Assembly (NCBI GenBank): GCA_015232825.1
Contig: JADFYY010000011.1
Location: forward strand, 1 to 36,039
Direction: 5' to 3'
Origin: Magnetococcales bacterium
Lineage (GTDB): Bacteria; Pseudomonadota; Magnetococcia; Magnetococcales; Magnetaquicoccaceae
DNA length: 36,039 nt
The notes below the pieces were generated by a model. It had not been told where the DNA came from and did not search any database. It saw nothing but the letters and a program-made list of their open reading frames with translations. This document shows, one piece after another, positions 1 to 8,337 of the stretch. Position 1 is the stretch's first letter. Each line of letters opens with the position of its first letter. A program made the translations under genes and the position numbers.

Positions 1-668
1 TCCATGTTTCGATGATCATAATCCCGGTCATAATAAGACGGGTCAAACCAACGCCTTTCCGAGCGTGAGTTTGGTTGTGGTTCATTCATTTCCCAAGGTG
101 CCAATCCAGCACCATAGTAAGAGCGACCCGAATCCCAGTTACGATCAGCGGCCCATCCATATGGACCTGGATCTCGATAGGAACCACGTCGCTGGTATGG
201 GTTTTCGTAAGTACTGTTCCATCCCCCAGAGTCCATCAGTGGATTGCCCCGGTCAGCTCCCCAGGGGTCATAGAGCGGCACATAACGGAGGGTCTCGTTG
301 TGTCCCCTTTGGTCGCCTTCGACATATCGGTCCCGTCTGGAGTCCATTTCGCGATCCCGATAAGAATTGGTCGGTTCTCGCGTCGAACGATAATTGTCAC
401 GTCTGTTGGACTCATCGGAGTCTGTGCGTTCCGAGGGATTTTTCATCTCCCGCATAAAGGAACCCATAAACTTGCCGAACCGTTGTCCCATCTCAACGGA
501 ATCTCCCTGGTCTGCGATTCCCATCATTCCAGGTGACATCATGGTTGGCGACATGGATGTCATGTCCGGGGTCAAACCACCACCAAGCACACGGTTGGGA
601 TGTGCAATCGAGATGGCACCGACTGCCAGAAAGAGAAGAAATGCTCGATCGTACAAGGCTTTCCTCAT
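1..668 (-). CDS. Exported Arg/Tyr/Asp-rich low-complexity protein (partial, C-terminus off window)
   Basis: This reading frame starts at an ATG at 668 and stays open to the left edge, giving at least 222 residues without a stop. It begins with an apparent signal peptide (MRKALYDRAFLLFLAVGAIS). Next comes a methionine-rich stretch with repeated MM pairs (about residues 38-55), then a long Arg/Tyr/Asp/Ser/Pro-rich region with recurring RD, YRD, NWD and SYY motifs, probably disordered. I recognise no named family. Composition resembles the proteins at 1473-2147 and 2144-2713, so it is probably a third paralogue-like member of the pump-associated operon. It is separated from the preceding gene by 188 AT-rich bases and may have its own promoter. 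The overlapping plus-strand frames lack a plausible start context and look like shadows. The exported location is inferred from the signal peptide; the function is unknown. Confidence 0.7.
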   Translation of the reverse strand, partial: MRKALYDRAFLLFLAVGAISIAHPNRVLGGGLTPDMTSMSPTMMSPGMMGIADQGDSVEMGQRFGKFMGSFMREMKNPSERTDSDESNRRDNYRSTREPTNSYRDREMDSRRDRYVEGDQRGHNETLRYVPLYDPWGADRGNPLMDSGGWNSTYENPYQRRGSYRDPGPYGWAADRNWDSGRSYYGAGLAPWEMNEPQPNSRSERRWFDPSYYDRDYDHRNM

Positions 669-835
669 TGGCTCGCCGATTGAAAAAATCCGAAAGCGAA
701 CTTTTTCGGTCAAAAAGATCATTGCGTTATTTTACCAGCTTAATACAAGTAAAAACCAGGAAAGAAATCTTGCTTGATCATTATTTTCTATATTATGATT
801 TCCTTATAAACCAATTTTCGACACGATGCAATAGA

Positions 836-856
836 AATAATGCATGGAGCATCATT
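836..856 (-). terminator. Weak hairpin after the DUF4412-like gene
   Basis: Immediately after the stop codon at 857, the minus strand can form an 8-bp stem (849-856 with 836-843, one G-U pair) around a 5-base loop. There is no clean T-run, so this may be a weak terminator or an mRNA-processing hairpin. Confidence 0.25.
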
Positions 857-1471
857 TTATTGCGTGGCCGTTGGAGAGGCTTCAGACACGGTTATTTTTT
901 TATATTCAGAAGGAATTTCAAATAATTGTGGATCCTGCTTGCCTTCTTTGATGTTGCTTAACTCCATGCTGAGCCCATCCGGGTACTGCTCACGAATGGC
1001 CATTTGCAAGCGCGAATCGACCCAAAGGTGGGCATGGGGGATTTCCCGGTTTTCCTCCCGGATGGCAATGGCCCAGTGAACAACCGACCGACCGTGGAAG
1101 GTTTCCGCACCGATTTGACGGCACAAAAACGCCTTGTTGGTGCGACAGGGACTGCCCGGTTCATCGGGAAGGGGGGGGCGGGAGACCTCGACTCCTGTGC
1201 GCTCTGTATAGCTCTTTTGCCCAGGTAGCAAAGTCAGGACCGTTTTTTGCGCAAGCTTGTGAATCAAGGTAATGGCCGTACCCTCGTGGATGGATTCGCT
1301 GCGAACGCCATCGGGTCCAACAAACAGCTTTCCCGTCGTTGAGGTTTTGCGATCCGCCTGAAAACGGGTCACATCGGCGGAAAATGACACACTCTCTTTG
1401 CTGGCCGCCCATAGAGCCGACGTCAATAGCAATAGAGTCAGTCCGAAAAGGGATGCCACAGTCGTTCTCAT
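857..1471 (-). CDS. Exported DUF4412 / LolA-fold-like protein
   Basis: The product has 204 residues. An N-terminal signal peptide (MRTTVASLFGLTLLLLTSAL, then WAASK) is followed by one beta-rich domain. Its pattern resembles DUF4412-type periplasmic proteins: GKLFVGPDGVRSES near the start, a central LLPGQKSYTE, two cysteines (PC and LC) around residues 110-120, then HLWVDSRLQMAIREQYPDG and a closing LFEIPSEYKKI. These proteins have folds like the lipoprotein carrier LolA, but the ligand is generally unknown. The ATG lies one base after the TGA of the upstream gene (stop 1473-1475), which suggests translational coupling. The frame is open further upstream, but that part overlaps the neighbouring gene antisense to nothing useful and lacks a signal peptide. 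The family call is moderate; the exported location is well supported. Confidence 0.7.
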   Translation of the reverse strand: MRTTVASLFGLTLLLLTSALWAASKESVSFSADVTRFQADRKTSTTGKLFVGPDGVRSESIHEGTAITLIHKLAQKTVLTLLPGQKSYTERTGVEVSRPPLPDEPGSPCRTNKAFLCRQIGAETFHGRSVVHWAIAIREENREIPHAHLWVDSRLQMAIREQYPDGLSMELSNIKEGKQDPQLFEIPSEYKKITVSEASPTATQ

Positions 1472-1472
1472 G

Positions 1473-2147
1473 TCAATAACGTTCCCTCGGTTGATATCGG
1501 TCACTCTCCCAAGGATCCCAGGGAGAAGTGGAGCGATTTCTAGAGCCGCGCCACCAGGGGTCCACCTCGTAACTTGGCTCAGGATAGTCTCGATACCTCT
1601 CCTGGCGCAAAGGCCGATCTCGGTACTCCTCCCTTTGATAGGGGCCATCCCAGTAGGGTGAGGAACGGGAAGGATAAGGGTCTGAATCGCGCGAATATCG
1701 GCGTGGAGTCGTTCGTCTGCGCCAATCATTCTCGATGAATGGGTCATTGTTATCGCTTGGTGGCCCTTCTCGTAGGTCTGCGGGATAATCTTCCAATGCA
1801 GACGGGATCTCTCCCCAAGGACGGTTCTTCTTTCCTGGAAGACGGGTATCTTCGTTATAGTCCCAAATGCGCGGGGTGCGTTGTTCTTGTGTGGGGTATG
1901 GATACCGTTCTTGTTGCCACCATGAATCTCTCCTTTCTTGATCCCTGTAGTCTCGTTGCGGGGGGTCATTTTTGGGTTTTTGAAAGGGGGAGTGGTTGGG
2001 GTCCACTCGGTAGAGTCCAGACGACCAGTTCGGTTCATCCGCTGCATGAATCACGGGAGAGAGGATCCATAACAAACCGATAACGCCAGATCCCATGAGG
2101 CATTTAAAAGTGCGGGACAATGCCGTATGGTGAACCATGATTCTCAT
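1473..2147 (-). CDS. Exported Arg/Tyr/Asp/Pro-rich low-complexity protein
   Basis: The product has 224 residues. The start is chosen at the ATG at 2147 because it overlaps the TGA of the preceding gene as ATGA. Residues 1-35 form a signal peptide ending around IHAADEP. The rest is strongly enriched in Arg, Tyr, Asp, Pro and Trp, with RDYRD, RYPYP, SPYWDG, REEYRDRP and DPWWRGS motifs and no predicted globular core. It shares composition and YWD/RYRD-type motifs with the proteins at 2144-2713 and 1-668. No known family is recognised. Its position between an RND permease and an exported DUF4412-like protein suggests a periplasmic or surface role linked to the pump, which is inference only. Confidence 0.72.
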   Translation of the reverse strand: MRIMVHHTALSRTFKCLMGSGVIGLLWILSPVIHAADEPNWSSGLYRVDPNHSPFQKPKNDPPQRDYRDQERRDSWWQQERYPYPTQEQRTPRIWDYNEDTRLPGKKNRPWGEIPSALEDYPADLREGPPSDNNDPFIENDWRRRTTPRRYSRDSDPYPSRSSPYWDGPYQREEYRDRPLRQERYRDYPEPSYEVDPWWRGSRNRSTSPWDPWESDRYQPRERY

Positions 2148-2713
2148 TGCCAGTGAATGCCGTCGCGACGATACGATTGACCCGATGAAGGCCATTCGCT
2201 GGGTGGTTTTCTGTAATCATCGGATGGACGGGATGGCCTTGTTGGAACACGATCATCCCAATTGTTTTCCACAGGTTGGCGATTCCCTCGTATGGGTCTC
2301 TCCATTTGGTTTGGTTCATAGGTTCCCATGGGACGGGCTGCTGGATAGCGAATCGCCTCCTCATAATCGTTTGGAGGGGTGTCGTAGTCAAAGCGGCTAT
2401 CCCGGCCTTGCGTGCGCGGTTCATCGCTTCGTTCATCCCAATAGCGGGATGAACGAGGAGGGGTCAGTTGACGGTCGAAATTACGCATAGGGGCGCGCTC
2501 AACATTAAAATCGGGCGGTGGATCCCAATAGCGTTGGGAGGATGGCATCAGGGGTTCCTCCGTTCTTGGGCCGGTCCTTTCACGGGAGGGATCCAATGAA
2601 TTCTCCCGTGCGGACCACGTTGGTGAATTTTCAAAGGCCATAACAGGTCTTAAGGCCACCAGTGTCGTGGCCATGGTGATCCAGCAAACCGTTATGTGTG
2701 AACTGCGCTTCAT
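2144..2713 (-). CDS. Exported Arg/Asp/Pro-rich low-complexity protein next to the RND permease
   Basis: The product has 189 residues. The start at 2713 lies four bases after the RND permease stop (2718-2720). The in-frame methionine at 2746 would overlap the permease and precede the signal peptide. Residues 1-27 read as a signal peptide (MKRSSHITVCWITMATTLVA, ending near VMAFENS). The mature part is rich in Arg, Asp, Pro and Ser, with two copies of a RYWD motif (SQRYWDPPPDF and SSRYWDERSDE), RFDYDTPPNDYEE and PTRPSRPSDDYRKPP. It looks disordered. No family is recognised. Tight coupling to the pump gene suggests coexpression. Confidence 0.72.
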   Translation of the reverse strand: MKRSSHITVCWITMATTLVALRPVMAFENSPTWSARENSLDPSRERTGPRTEEPLMPSSQRYWDPPPDFNVERAPMRNFDRQLTPPRSSRYWDERSDEPRTQGRDSRFDYDTPPNDYEEAIRYPAARPMGTYEPNQMERPIRGNRQPVENNWDDRVPTRPSRPSDDYRKPPSEWPSSGQSYRRDGIHWQ

Positions 2714-2717
2714 GCTA

Positions 2718-5700
2718 CTAGGCGTTCCCCTTAGTGTTGGAATCATCCTTGTCGGTTTTCAGACGAATGCCACGTCTGGCCACAGGTGGCTTTGCCTTGA
2801 GATCATCGTTTGACTCTTTCGAGATGGGTGTTTCCGTGGAAGGCGTCACACTGCTCTTTATTGTCAATGGAGCGGGGGTCGCCTCTGCCGTTGTTTGAAC
2901 CACAGGCCTAGGAGGAGCCTTGGGAGTTGTCACCATAGGCTTGGGAGGAGCCTTGGGAGAGGCCACCACAGGCACGGGTGGTGTTACTTCGGTTGCGACA
3001 ACAGGTGCTGGGGCCAATGGTGGGGCCGGTGGTGGTGCTGGAGGAGTCACCGTGACTGTTTTTTTGGCTGGGCTAGAATTATAGCGTTTCAAAAACGCCT
3101 GCACCCCTGCCAAACGTTCCACCTTGCCTTTTTGGGCGACGACCTTTGTCGGGGGGGATGCAATCGGCCCGGTCATGTCGGTTGGGCAGGCGGCTTCTTT
3201 GCTGCCAGACAAGACCAGATGATACCCATCAGGATGGACAAAAGAGGCACTGGCACTGACACAGCCCAAGGGAATGACCAACAGAGTTAGCAACGTGGAG
3301 ACTAGGGAGCCAAACAGCAACGAAATGGCCATACCCTGAAAGATGAAATCTCCCAAAATGACGCTGGATCCGGCTACCAGAGCCAAAGCCGTGATGATAA
3401 TCGGACGGGTTCTGGCCTTGCAGGAGAGAATGACCGCATCTCGTACACTGATTCCTTTAAGGATCTCCTGTTGGGCAAAATCCACGAGCAAGATGGAGTT
3501 GCGCACGATGATGCCAGCCAACGCAATAAAACCAATCATGGAGGTCGCCGTGAATTTGGCTCCCAGTAACCAGTGACCCGGAAGGATCCCCAGCAAAGTC
3601 AATGGAATGGGTGCCATGATCACCGCAGGCAGGACAAAGTTACCAAACTCCCACACCACCAGAATATAAATCAGGATCAAAGCCACGCCAAAGGCCAGTC
3701 CCATATCCCGGAAGGTCTCATAGGTGATGGTCCATTCGCCGGTCCACTCAAAAGCGGATTTCATATAGTTTTTGGGCGGTCCCATCATTTCGCCGCTCAT
3801 TACGACCCCATCGGGCGTGGTATAGGATTTCAACAGGGCATCCACATCCATCATGCCGTAAATGGGGGCATCCAAACGCCCTTCCACCTCGGCGGTGACA
3901 TACTCCACAGGCCGTAGATCCTTGTGAAAAATGATTGGATCATGCGTTTGTTTGATGAATCGACCCAACTCACCCAGAGGAATCGATTTTCCCTGTGGCG
4001 TGACAATGGGCAGATCGCTCAAGCTGGATATATTGGAACGCACCGCCAAAGGAACCTGAATGACAATATAGGTGGGTTCTAAAACACTCCCCCGTTTGAC
4101 ATCACCCAACTGCGCCCCACCCATGGCCATGCCGAGGTTGCGGTTGATGGTGTCCACCGAAATGCCGCGACGAATCGCTTTTTCTGTGTCCACTTCAAAT
4201 CGCCAGATCTCGTAGGGTTCCCGCATATAGTTGTCCACATCCACTAAGGATGGGGATTTTTTGAAAATTTCGGTTACATCCGAGGCCACACGGCGTCTGG
4301 TTTCCGCATCTGGGCCGGTGATTTCTGCGACCACGGATTGCAAAACAGGCGGTCCAGGTGGCATCTCGACCACCTCGATTTTGGCTCCAAGTTCATGAGC
4401 GAGCGGGGTTAAAAGCTTGCGAGCGTTGATGGCGATGTCATGACTGGTCCGTTTGCGTTTGCTTTTGTGGAGCAACTGCACTTGAATGTCGGCATGCCAG
4501 GAGTCTTGACGCAGATAATAATGACGTACCATGCCATTGAAATTAAATGGCGAAGCCGATCCAATATAGGTCTGCATGGCCGTGATTTCTGGAATACTCT
4601 CCTTCAGGGTGTTGGTCATGCGCTGAGCCAGATTGGCGGTTTTGGGCATGGCCGTCCCTTCTGGCATGTTGATGACCACATTGAATTCTGGTTTGTTGTC
4701 TAAGGGCATGATCTTGACCGTCACCCCGGTGGTATAAAACAGGGTCATGGTGAGAAAGAATAGGGCGATCAAACCGCCCAAAAAGCCCCATCCCATGACC
4801 TTGTTGTCCAAAAGACCGGGAATGATCCAACGAAAAAAACGTTCCAACTTTTCGGAAGAGCGATGCTCTCTGTCTGAGTGGTGATGCAGGGAGCGCATGC
4901 TCGGCTTGATGAGTTGAGCCAACCAGGGGGTGAAAATAAAGGCCGCGAACAAAGAAAACAACATGGCCACCGAGCCTAAAGCCGGAATGGGTAGCATGTA
5001 TGGCCCCATCATTCCTCGAACAAATCCCATGGGGAGTAGGGCGGCAATCACGGTGAACGTGGCCAAAATTGTTGGGTTGCCCACCTCGCGTACCGCATCA
5101 ATGGAGATGAGATGGCAACATTTGTCCTCCAGCAACCAGCGGCGATAGATGTTTTCCACCACCACGATGGCGTCATCCACCAAGATGCCAATCGAGAAAA
5201 TCAGTGCAAACAGACTGACGCGGTCAATGGTGTATCCCATGAGCAGAGCGGCAAACACGGTCATTAGAATGACCACCGGAATGACGATAAGGGTCACAAT
5301 GGCCGGTTTGAGTCCCAGTGAATACCAAACCAACAGCGTCACCGCCAGTGTGGCCACCATGAGCTTAAACAGCAGTTCATTGACTTTTTCATTCGCCGTT
5401 TCGCCATAGTTGCGGGTGACGGCAACATGGACGTTGCTTGGGATTAGACGACCTTTGAGTTCCTCGACCTTCGCAAGTACCCCATTGGCCACAGTAACCC
5501 CGTTGGCACCCTTTTTCTTGGCAATGGCAATGGTGACCGACGGAGCATGGTTGGCCTTCACTCCCTCCTTGTCAGAAGCGGCTTGTCCCGTGGTGTAGGT
5601 GACCATGCGTTGGGTCTCTTCTGGGCCGGAAAAGACTTCCGCCACATCCCGTACCCGAATGGGATTGTCCCCGTGTGTCCCCACCATAAGACGGGAAACA

Positions 5701-6488
5701 TCATGGGCATTCTTCAAAAACGAGCCAGAGTAGACCTGAAATCCTTGATCGGCGGATTCAACACTGCCAAGCCCCTTTTCGCTGTTGGCCGTGCGGATGG
5801 TCTGGGCAATTTGGTCTAGGCTAATGCCATATCCCGCGAGTCGTTCTGGGGAGACTTCCACTCGAATCTGTTCTGAGCGGCCTCCCACCACAAAGCTCTG
5901 GCTGGCATTCGCCACTTCATTGAGCTTTTGCAAAACGTCCAAAGCCAGAATGCGCAAGGCCGAATCATCGGCATCCGTGGACCATAAGGTCAGTGTAACC
6001 ACCGGCACATCATCCACCGCCTTGGGTTTGACCAATGGCTTGGTGACATCTGGGGGCATGGAGTCCATGTTGGATTCAAGCTTGTCGTACAGCTTGACGA
6101 GTGAGCTTTCCATGTCCTCGCCCACATTGAACTCAACCGTGACCATGGCCTGACCCCGCAACGACGCAGAGTAGACATGTTTCACCCCTTTGATTTCACT
6201 CATGATGCGTTCCAAGGGTTCAGCCACCAGCGAAGAGACTTGATCCGCTGAGGCCCCTGGATAACGGACAAAAATGTCCACCATGGGCACCGAAATTTGT
6301 GGATCCTCCTGACGCGGGGTGAGCAACAGCCCCATGATACCCATGGCCAGACAGGCAAAAAGCAATAGCGGTGACAAGGGTGAGTGGATGAACACCTTGG
6401 CCATTAACCCCGCAGCACCGAGGTTATGATGGATCGATGTGGTGGTGGGTGGAGGAGGCGTTAGCGATTCATTTTTTGGTGTTGTCAT
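2718..6488 (-). CDS. RND-superfamily efflux permease with proline-rich C-terminal tail
   Basis: The product is a 1256-residue inner-membrane proton-driven transporter of the AcrB/HAE type. The N-terminal transmembrane segment (LLLFACLAMGIMGLLL) precedes the porter entry motif VDIFVRYPGASADQVSSLV. TM4 carries the proton-relay aspartate pair in FSIGILVDDAIVVVENIYRR. The second repeat has the paired motif IALAGIIVRNSILLVDFA and then SCKARTRPIIITALALVAGS. The core ends near residue 1080. An extra tail of about 170 residues follows, rich in Pro, Ala, Val and Lys (APPPAPPLAPAP, PKAPPKPMVTTPKAPPRP), and ends with RRGIRLKTDKDD. The usual family length is about 1020-1100, so the tail is an addition. 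The fusion protein gene lies upstream (6591-7745) and no TolC-like gene is in the window. The substrate cannot be read from the sequence. Confidence 0.93.
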   Translation of the reverse strand: MTTPKNESLTPPPPTTTSIHHNLGAAGLMAKVFIHSPLSPLLLFACLAMGIMGLLLTPRQEDPQISVPMVDIFVRYPGASADQVSSLVAEPLERIMSEIKGVKHVYSASLRGQAMVTVEFNVGEDMESSLVKLYDKLESNMDSMPPDVTKPLVKPKAVDDVPVVTLTLWSTDADDSALRILALDVLQKLNEVANASQSFVVGGRSEQIRVEVSPERLAGYGISLDQIAQTIRTANSEKGLGSVESADQGFQVYSGSFLKNAHDVSRLMVGTHGDNPIRVRDVAEVFSGPEETQRMVTYTTGQAASDKEGVKANHAPSVTIAIAKKKGANGVTVANGVLAKVEELKGRLIPSNVHVAVTRNYGETANEKVNELLFKLMVATLAVTLLVWYSLGLKPAIVTLIVIPVVILMTVFAALLMGYTIDRVSLFALIFSIGILVDDAIVVVENIYRRWLLEDKCCHLISIDAVREVGNPTILATFTVIAALLPMGFVRGMMGPYMLPIPALGSVAMLFSLFAAFIFTPWLAQLIKPSMRSLHHHSDREHRSSEKLERFFRWIIPGLLDNKVMGWGFLGGLIALFFLTMTLFYTTGVTVKIMPLDNKPEFNVVINMPEGTAMPKTANLAQRMTNTLKESIPEITAMQTYIGSASPFNFNGMVRHYYLRQDSWHADIQVQLLHKSKRKRTSHDIAINARKLLTPLAHELGAKIEVVEMPPGPPVLQSVVAEITGPDAETRRRVASDVTEIFKKSPSLVDVDNYMREPYEIWRFEVDTEKAIRRGISVDTINRNLGMAMGGAQLGDVKRGSVLEPTYIVIQVPLAVRSNISSLSDLPIVTPQGKSIPLGELGRFIKQTHDPIIFHKDLRPVEYVTAEVEGRLDAPIYGMMDVDALLKSYTTPDGVVMSGEMMGPPKNYMKSAFEWTGEWTITYETFRDMGLAFGVALILIYILVVWEFGNFVLPAVIMAPIPLTLLGILPGHWLLGAKFTATSMIGFIALAGIIVRNSILLVDFAQQEILKGISVRDAVILSCKARTRPIIITALALVAGSSVILGDFIFQGMAISLLFGSLVSTLLTLLVIPLGCVSASASFVHPDGYHLVLSGSKEAACPTDMTGPIASPPTKVVAQKGKVERLAGVQAFLKRYNSSPAKKTVTVTPPAPPPAPPLAPAPVVATEVTPPVPVVASPKAPPKPMVTTPKAPPRPVVQTTAEATPAPLTIKSSVTPSTETPISKESNDDLKAKPPVARRGIRLKTDKDDSNTKGNA

Positions 6489-6590
6489 GGTCTGCGGTTC
6501 CGAGTCGTTTTTTTAGGTTTGGTTGCGGACGCCGCATCCATCATGCGGACGTCCTTAGAATTTGTTTTTTAATAAGTAACCTAGTCTGCC

Positions 6591-7745
6591 TTATTTGGCG
6601 GCCGGATTCCATTCTGTTGCCATGCCACTCGGCGGCGTAGCCAGAATGCGTTCACCAATGGAGAGCCCAGAAAGAACGCTGACCGATTTGTCATCTACAA
6701 ATCCTCCCAGACGAACCATGCGCAACAGTGGTTCGCCTCCCTTGTCCGCCGCGATCAGTACCGCTGGCAGACTGCCGCGCCAGATGACGGAAGATTTGGG
6801 AATGATGGGCAGGTTTTTGACAGGCGTGCTGACATCGGGAATCATCACTTCGGCATACATGCCCGGTCCACCCGGTGCATCCTTGGGTAGATCGAGTTTG
6901 ACCGTTACCGTGTGCCGTTGTGAATCGGCCATGGGGTAGATCTGGGCCACTTTGGTATCGATTTTGGTGTCCCCCACGTCCAGTTTGGCGGGGATGACCA
7001 TATCTTTTTGAATGCCGGGCATCAGACGGGCGGGTACATCCACTTTGATTTGCAGATGGCGCGTGTCGGCAAAGGTGAGCAAAGGCATGCCGGGTTGTAC
7101 TGTATTGCTTTTTTCAATGTTTTTCGTCACGATCACGCCAGAAAACGGGGCGATAGATTTGGTATCCCGGAGTTTGGCTTCCAGTTCCTGGAGTTTAGCC
7201 AAGGCTTGGGTGCGGGCAAACTGGGCCTGATCGATCTGTGTGCCTTGATTATAAATTTTGGCGCGACGTGAGAGTTCTGGGTTGTCCACCCCCATCATGC
7301 TGGTCATGGGACGAGTGACCATGAAATCCATCATGCGGGGCATACCCATGCCGGTATTCTCGCCACCACCATAATCTGAGCCGCTGTAGACCTGTTTGGT
7401 ATACTGCACGCGGGCATTTTTCCAGTTGACATCTGCCGTATCCAGGGCCGCTTGAGCCGAACGTCGCATGGCGATCAGGTCGTCATTGTCTAAGGCTACC
7501 AGGACTGTGCCGCTTTTGAACCAATCGCCTTCAACCCCTGCGATGAATTCAACCCGACCAGGCATTTGGGCCGTAAAAGCAACTTCTTTGAAGGGAATTA
7601 CCGTGCCACCCAAGGTCGTGGTGGCTCCAATCGCTCCTGCCTCGACCGTGATGATGTTGTTGCCATTGGCGGCACTCATGCCCGATGCGGGCAGCGTCAC
7701 CATGAGAGCCGCAAACACCGCTGTGCGCATTTTCATTCTTGTCAT
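6591..7745 (-). CDS. RND efflux periplasmic adaptor (membrane fusion protein)
   Basis: The product has 384 residues. The start at 7745 has an AGGGG upstream on the minus strand and gives a clean signal peptide (AVFAALMVTLPASGMSAAN). Biotinyl/lipoyl-like halves flank a helical hairpin: VAFTAQMPGRVEFIAGVEGD before it and SIAPFSGVIVTKNIEKSNTV after it. A beta-barrel and a membrane-proximal domain follow, ending near IGERILATPPSGM. The hairpin region carries an unusual insertion rich in Met and Gly (about residues 128-158: GGGENTGMGMPRMMDF, MTSMMGV), atypical for the family and possibly metal-binding. It would link the permease at 2718-6488 to an outer-membrane channel encoded elsewhere. The gap to the permease is 102 bases. 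Confidence 0.9.
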   Translation of the reverse strand: MTRMKMRTAVFAALMVTLPASGMSAANGNNIITVEAGAIGATTTLGGTVIPFKEVAFTAQMPGRVEFIAGVEGDWFKSGTVLVALDNDDLIAMRRSAQAALDTADVNWKNARVQYTKQVYSGSDYGGGENTGMGMPRMMDFMVTRPMTSMMGVDNPELSRRAKIYNQGTQIDQAQFARTQALAKLQELEAKLRDTKSIAPFSGVIVTKNIEKSNTVQPGMPLLTFADTRHLQIKVDVPARLMPGIQKDMVIPAKLDVGDTKIDTKVAQIYPMADSQRHTVTVKLDLPKDAPGGPGMYAEVMIPDVSTPVKNLPIIPKSSVIWRGSLPAVLIAADKGGEPLLRMVRLGGFVDDKSVSVLSGLSIGERILATPPSGMATEWNPAAK

Positions 7746-7776
7746 GATGTAGCCCCTTTGTGACCTTGTTAACACC

Positions 7777-7809
7777 AACATTCCCCGGCACAAAAGGCCG
7801 GGGAATGTT
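7777..7809 (-). terminator. 13-bp perfect hairpin between the SCP-2 gene and the adaptor gene
   Basis: The arms at 7777-7789 and 7797-7809 are perfectly complementary around a 7-base loop, with a CCCCGGC core. The structure lies 12 bases after the SCP-2-like stop and about 30 bases before the adaptor start. The tract after it on the minus strand is only weakly T-rich. It could be a leaky terminator or an mRNA-stabilising hairpin that sets different levels of SCP-2 protein and pump. Confidence 0.6.
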
Positions 7810-7821
7810 ATGTTTGTACTG

Positions 7822-8217
7822 TCAGACCCGTCCCATGACGGTGAACGATTTGATGAATGGTCCGGCCATGCGTGGATCTTTGATCATGGCACCGTAGTCA
7901 CCCACATTGAACTTAAGCTTGCGGGTGGTATAGGCCATACCCAAGCCCATCATGCCCAGTCCTTTTTCGATCCATTTGGACCAGCTCTCTTCGCTGGCGC
8001 GCAGATCCCAGTTCAACTCTTCGCCAGCATAGGCTCCGCTTTTTACCCCTTTGCCGTTCTCGACTACCAGTACGCCACGGGGTGCGTCTTCACCCTCAAT
8101 GCCATAGCCGATGGTGGAGGTGAAGCCAATTTTGGCCAAGGCTTCGCCTAGGTCGGGTTCGTTGTTCCATTCGGTTTGAAAACGGTTCATCCATGCTGCG
8201 GAAAATAGATCAGACAT
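7822..8217 (-). CDS. SCP-2 sterol-transfer-like protein
   Basis: This small soluble protein of 131 residues has no signal peptide. Its layout fits the SCP-2/sterol-binding fold: an N-terminal helix (LFSAAWMNRFQTEWNN), then strands FTSTIGYGIEG and RGVLVVENGKG, a WDLRASEESWSKW segment and a C-terminal amphipathic part (AYTTRKLKFNVGDYGAM, FIKSFTVMGRV). Family members bind hydrophobic or lipid ligands. A GGGAG sits about 9 bases before the ATG. It is the first gene of the pump operon, with a good promoter about 90 bases upstream. Cotranscription with an RND pump suggests that a lipid or hydrophobic ligand is handled by both, but this is inference. Confidence 0.72.
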   Translation of the reverse strand: MSDLFSAAWMNRFQTEWNNEPDLGEALAKIGFTSTIGYGIEGEDAPRGVLVVENGKGVKSGAYAGEELNWDLRASEESWSKWIEKGLGMMGLGMAYTTRKLKFNVGDYGAMIKDPRMAGPFIKSFTVMGRV

Positions 8218-8307: not shown

Positions 8308-8337
8308 ATTATACAAAGATAATTTGCATTCTGCCAA
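8308..8337 (-). promoter_or_regulatory. Sigma70-type promoter of the SCP-2 / pump operon
   Basis: On the minus strand TTGGCA (8337-8332) and a consensus TATAAT (8313-8308) are separated by 18 bases. The predicted transcription start is near 8301, about 85 bases before the SCP-2 ATG. Confidence 0.6.

Follow-up and report, generated by a model that had tools for sequence, protein, structure and literature searches.

The window analysed here (G000:C22:1-36039; 36,039 nt, with base 1 at the contig end) belongs to a Magnetococcales bacterium and carries on its minus strand a block of genes that probably serves sulfur-globule assembly in sulfur-oxidising bacteria, with disordered exported proteins acting as envelope or scaffold and an RND-type pump and its carriers exporting a hydrophobic component. 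Read 5' to 3', the block encodes an SCP2-fold (sterol-carrier-protein-like) protein of 131 residues, the periplasmic adaptor (MFP) and permease of the pump, two low-complexity exported proteins (LC1 and LC2), a DUF4412-like protein and a third low-complexity protein (LC3). The globule-assembly reading is favoured because a sulfur-globule protein (Sgp) beside an exporter has a precedent, because globules and rDsr genes are reported for magnetotactic cocci, and because of the gene company in which the block is found. That company suggests that periplasmic sulfur stores are built by a dedicated machine that has hardly been described so far.

The precedent is SgpD (Alvin_2515) of Allochromatium vinosum, the most abundant sulfur-globule protein of that species. 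It is exported and Pro-rich, adjoins a hydrophobic/amphiphilic exporter, shows a 28-fold induction by sulfide and, when fused to mCherry, co-localises with the globules (PMC10386293). A sequence-only reading of the window had held that no RND system is known with such partners; SgpD contradicts this. In both cases the host is a dsr sulfur oxidiser with periplasmic sulfur, and an exported, low-complexity, Pro-containing protein has an exporter of the HAE type as its neighbour. The two systems nevertheless differ. SgpD is reported to form its own transcription unit and to have BLAST relatives almost only in Chromatiaceae (PMC10386293), the exporters are likened by description only, and the window block has three disordered proteins, two of them abutting pump genes, along with the DUF4412-like and SCP2-fold proteins. 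More generally, sulfur-globule proteins are exported, repetitive and of low complexity, and the loss of SgpB together with SgpC stops globule formation (PMC10386293), as does Sgp loss in Beggiatoa leptomitoformis (PMC7356093). Sulfur globules and rDsr genes have both been reported for magnetotactic cocci (PMC6783814, PMC5088516), and dsrA scores above cut-off in 42 of 48 Magnetococcales genomes.

Within the order Magnetococcales, the succession SCP2-fold protein, MFP, RND, LC1, LC2 and DUF4412 is kept across the 37 loci examined. The MFP gene stands beside the permease gene in all 37, and the 131-residue protein is present in 35, the other two stretches being too short or cut upstream. A DUF4412-like gene occurs in 31/31 loci with at least 2.3 kb of downstream sequence. 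The orthologous permeases are 66-85% identical, and a second RND class stands apart at 41-44%. In relatives, the block usually extends to another disordered protein, then to a pair of short exported proteins rich in Gly, Asn and Trp and to a ParA. At least one such Sgp-like protein (e.g. MKRTARILALAGVLTALGHALPETASAWWGPWDN...) lies downstream in 24 of 30 Magnetococcales loci; in the window, any such genes are out of view because the contig ends. The downstream G/N/W/Y-rich proteins of L038, L114 and L166, which we take to resemble SgpA, SgpB and SgpC, share with them short length, export and repetitive composition. In L038 (positions 170-6884, minus strand) and at equivalent places in other relatives, the locus goes on with two ParA proteins separated by a membrane coiled-coil protein, after which come a ZorA/MotA-like protein, a further coiled-coil protein and a DUF463 (YcjX) protein.

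The same gene order, which the sequence-only reading had proposed looking for in other genomes, was found in Gammaproteobacteria and in the proteobacterial order of genome G290 as well. The 131-residue family was used to scan GTDB genomes and yielded 352 relatives, the best 80 of which are Magnetococcales and, going by their record titles, mostly Gammaproteobacteria. Sulfur oxidisers among these 80 include Halobeggiatoa, Thiomargarita, Thioploca, Thiodiazotropha, Sedimenticola, Thiotrichaceae and Ectothiorhodospiraceae; the conserved gene order is seen in the last four. Outside Magnetococcales, MFP accompanies RND in 39/39 loci with an RND gene, and Sgp-like proteins lie downstream in 10 of 26 loci. 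Complete versions, with SCP2-fold, MFP, RND, LC1, LC2, Sgp-like, DUF4412 and ParA genes in this order, occur in eight of them (L114, L115, L119, L134, L136, L146, L161 and L166), except that a single LC gene is present in L161 and the second LC of L166 was recognised by eye only. The order of G290 contributes nine further loci with RND, DUF4412 and ParA in order; low-complexity exported proteins lie between RND and DUF4412 in all nine, and Sgp-like proteins were detected in seven. One complete bacterial version (L136) is on a contig labelled 'Halobacteria archaeon isolate Site_C19', which is probably mislabelled or a contaminant. In the proteobacterial locus L167 (G385:C16), the SCP2-fold protein has no RND permease that could be found nearby and is apparently located beside hydrogenase genes.

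As a control, 18 other RND permeases from genomes of the same order were put through the same scan. Low-complexity exported proteins were found within 2 kb downstream of 51 of the 60 orthologous RND loci, compared to 3 of these 18 paralogous loci (Fisher p 1.6e-7, taking loci as independent and ignoring shared ancestry, as do all p values given here). Sgp-like neighbours are present at 33/56 target loci and 0/18 paralogous ones (p 3e-6). In the order of G290, dsrA is above cut-off in all 13 locus carriers, compared to 15 of 32 non-carriers (p 6e-4). The suggestion of the earlier reading that pump and disordered proteins belong together is supported: they form one conserved unit, with exceptions among Beggiatoa-type loci.

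The low-complexity proteins themselves are as first described: three exported proteins, predicted to be disordered, follow the permease, and all three frames are where they had been placed. Arg, Tyr, Asp, Pro and Trp together make up 41-56% of the mature sequences, which are near neutral, lack Cys, and contain almost no Lys, with Arg in its stead. The disorder prediction, based on composition and charge-hydropathy, puts all three mature proteins below the Uversky boundary (H of 0.27-0.33, with the boundary at 0.42). Sec-type signal peptides, with a charged n-region, a hydrophobic core and an AxA-like site, were called by a simple rule in LC1 and LC2 of the window and in LC1-LC3 of relatives; LC3 of the window was judged by eye. 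Searches of Pfam and NCBIfam profiles returned no matches for LC1, LC2 or LC3. Conserved islands are present in LC2 (NWSSGLYR.DP, RPWGE(I/V)P and YWDGPYQ), and an alignment of 24 LC3 proteins reveals an order-wide motif, G.RFGKFMGSFM.EM, followed by YDPWGA. The LC3 signature is found in 24 of 30 Magnetococcales loci and 0 of 27 others. At 26/31 loci of Magnetococcales and 7/22 loci from elsewhere, the LC proteins contain an RPWG-type motif, as against 1.1 and 0.3 for shuffled sequences. Compared to SgpA, SgpB and SgpC, the LC proteins are longer and rich in Arg, Tyr and Asp rather than Gly and Asn, and no sequence family links the two groups.

It could be argued that the LC frames are merely open frames in GC-rich DNA, given the fast divergence of LC1 and the lack of a Pfam or NCBIfam family. 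This is extremely improbable. In close-relative Magnetococcales pairs, the ratio of nonsynonymous to synonymous differences (pN/pS) is 0.28-0.57 in the annotated LC frames and about 0.9-1.9 in shifted frames, and nucleotide changes are concentrated at third codon positions. The conserved motifs far exceed those of shuffled sequences, and both gene position and signal peptides are kept. For the window itself, compared to L041, pN/pS is 0.55 for LC2 and 0.45 for LC3; LC1 gives 0.87, in a pair too diverged to decide. Spurious frames were therefore rejected on codon statistics, which in close relatives identify the LC frames as translated.

The block begins with one carrier-like protein and includes another after LC2. 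Lipids or other hydrophobic molecules are the ligands of many known proteins with SCP2 and LolA/RseB folds. The 131-residue protein, 69-89% identical across Magnetococcales, has no Pfam or NCBIfam profile match, but its AlphaFold model (pLDDT, predicted local distance difference test, 89.5) superimposes on 2cx7 with a Z of 17.0 (2.3 A over 122 residues), and an SCP2 fold is predicted. The second protein scores 20.7 bits against DUF4412 (PF14371), just under the cut-off of 21.6; among 30 orthologues, 15 have a match at E<0.01, the best at 1e-7. Its predicted model resembles RseB (Z 13.1 over 157 residues, 4.0 A) and LolA (Z about 11-12), and a curved single-sheet carrier fold of the LolA/RseB type is predicted. 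Both proteins would thus share their folds with known carriers, the LolA/RseB periplasmic carriers and the SCP2 lipid carriers, at only about 6-18% sequence identity to the known structures. PDB sequence profiles gave no real match for either protein, with weak eL28 matches at E about 0.07. A longer, two-domain exported paralogue of the DUF4412-like protein is encoded elsewhere in most Magnetococcales genomes (e.g. G000:C193:4576-5445, L212); it adjoins the housekeeping genes ndk and rlmN in two of three places read and has no pump beside it.

The pump is of the AcrB/MexB HAE type (PF00873), with which it shares a permease and adaptor and an intact Asp pair (DD) in transmembrane segment 4 (TM4). 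The PF00873 match covers permease residues 29-1074. It differs from AcrB and MexB in its TM10 motif (VRNSILLVDF, with Arg replacing Lys), in its Pro-rich tail, in its lipid-carrier-like and disordered partners, and in the lack of an outer-membrane channel gene in the block; no outer-membrane factor gene was seen among the block genes of the window or of the relatives read, though one could be encoded elsewhere. The Pro/Ala-rich C-terminal tail comprises about 180 residues (window 2718-3240), and the orthologues are similarly long, at about 1200-1460 residues. RND/MFP pairs are classic efflux components, and it may be that the block encodes a stress or efflux pump with which sulfur oxidisers clear the inner membrane of a toxic hydrophobic product (polysulfide, organic sulfane or damaged lipid), with the LC and Sgp-like proteins merely co-regulated during sulfide oxidation. 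Such a model would accommodate the Beggiatoa-type loci described below and the rapid evolution of the LC proteins next to a well-conserved pump. It is nonetheless unlikely: the lack of a channel gene in the block and the two flanking lipid-carrier folds speak against it, and LC1 and LC2 overlap or abut RND and DUF4412 in three lineages, which is beyond what co-regulation needs.

In the window (Table 1), a gap of 4 nt separates the RND and LC1 genes, LC1 and LC2 overlap in an ATGA, and 1 nt lies between LC2 and the DUF4412-like gene, spacings that are compatible with translational coupling. Co-expression with the pump had been proposed for all three LC genes; the tight spacing agrees with this for LC1 and LC2, whereas it is less certain for LC3 because that gene starts 188 nt beyond the DUF4412-like gene. 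An inverted repeat with a 13-bp stem (window 7777-7809) is located between the SCP2-fold and MFP genes, and a GC-rich hairpin with 7-12 paired bases occupies the equivalent site in 8/8 same-genus relatives examined (L038-L045). This hairpin may act in attenuation or in stabilising the mRNA.

Table 1. Components of the block and its putative promoter in the window.
Feature	Position	Strand	Match or remark
Sigma-70-like promoter, upstream of block	8308-8337	minus	11/12 consensus positions; consensus match only
SCP2-fold protein, 131 aa, no signal peptide, first of block	7822-8217	minus	
Periplasmic adaptor of pump (MFP/HlyD)	6591-7745	minus	TIGR01730, 137 bits (cut-off 94.9)
RND permease, AcrB/HAE type	2718-6488	minus	PF00873, 488 bits (cut-off 28)
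LC1, exported, Arg/Asp/Pro/Tyr-rich, predicted disordered	2144-2713	minus	
LC2, exported, Arg/Tyr/Asp/Trp-rich, predicted disordered	1473-2147	minus	
Exported LolA/DUF4412-like protein	857-1471	minus	absent from the list of the sequence-only reading
LC3, exported, predicted disordered	3-668	minus	frame open at base 3 (contig end)

From the gene content, we infer a location of the proteins at the globule, a class of transported substrate, condensation of the LC proteins and a role for ParA. A cytoplasmic SCP2-fold carrier would supply the permease and adaptor, and the pump would move a hydrophobic or amphiphilic component, perhaps a lipid or organic sulfane, into the periplasm, handing it to the periplasmic LolA/DUF4412-type carrier. 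There, LC1-LC3, with Arg, Tyr and Trp as 'stickers', may condense with the Gly/Asn/Trp/Tyr-rich Sgp-like proteins, and this condensate would constitute the sulfur-globule envelope or scaffold. The neighbouring ParA ATPase may position the assembly. A broader proposal, which we advance more tentatively, is that the hydrophobe pump, the SCP2 and LolA-like carriers, phase-separating disordered envelope proteins and a positioning ParA together make up a conserved, dedicated system that builds periplasmic sulfur globules as organelles, common by vertical descent or transfer to Magnetococcales and other proteobacterial sulfur oxidisers.

The LC proteins might instead have nothing to do with internal sulfur and leave the cell through the pump or together with it, to form a material on the cell surface or outside the cell. 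Signal peptides, predicted disorder and a high content of Arg, Tyr and Trp would suit an adhesive, but the block includes no anchoring or outer-membrane secretion genes, and its company of Sgp-like proteins, dsrA and sulfur-oxidising hosts is consistent; we consider this reading quite improbable. Of the earlier idea of a surface material, then, a material or coat role remains the best reading, with a coat or scaffold of periplasmic globules likelier than one at the surface; the further ideas that the proteins coat, gate or extend the pump stay conjectural.

Several observations weigh against globule assembly. A search of the window's own assembly found neither Sgp-like nor ParA genes, which is most likely due to its completeness of only 77% and to the end of the contig within LC3. 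No Sgp-like gene lies near the LC and DUF4412 genes of six loci in Magnetococcales (L055, L058, L060 and L066, which belong to a single genus, and two others), and in several Beggiatoa-type loci SCP2, MFP and RND genes occur with no adjacent LC or Sgp genes detected. No Pfam or NCBIfam model matches the Sgp-like neighbours, which are identified by signal peptide, composition and repeats. Deletion of sgpD in A. vinosum gave no globule phenotype (PMC10386293), and micrographs of UR-1, one member of the Magnetococcales, are without sulfur globules (PMC6783814). Finally, the placement of the Magnetococcales proteins at globules is itself drawn from gene content.

Among open-licence papers, no description was found of a locus joining an RND pump to sulfur globules or to ParA. 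A single purple sulfur bacterium, with its three or four Sgp proteins, has been the basis of most work on globules, and the source of the globule envelope, the need for it, and its content of lipid or organic end groups are open questions. A locus whose gene order persists across several lineages would supply a parts list (a pump, two carriers, scaffold proteins and a positioning ATPase) and open the assembly pathway to direct tests by gene removal. If the globule-assembly reading is correct, an RND pump would gain a physiological job besides drug and metal efflux.

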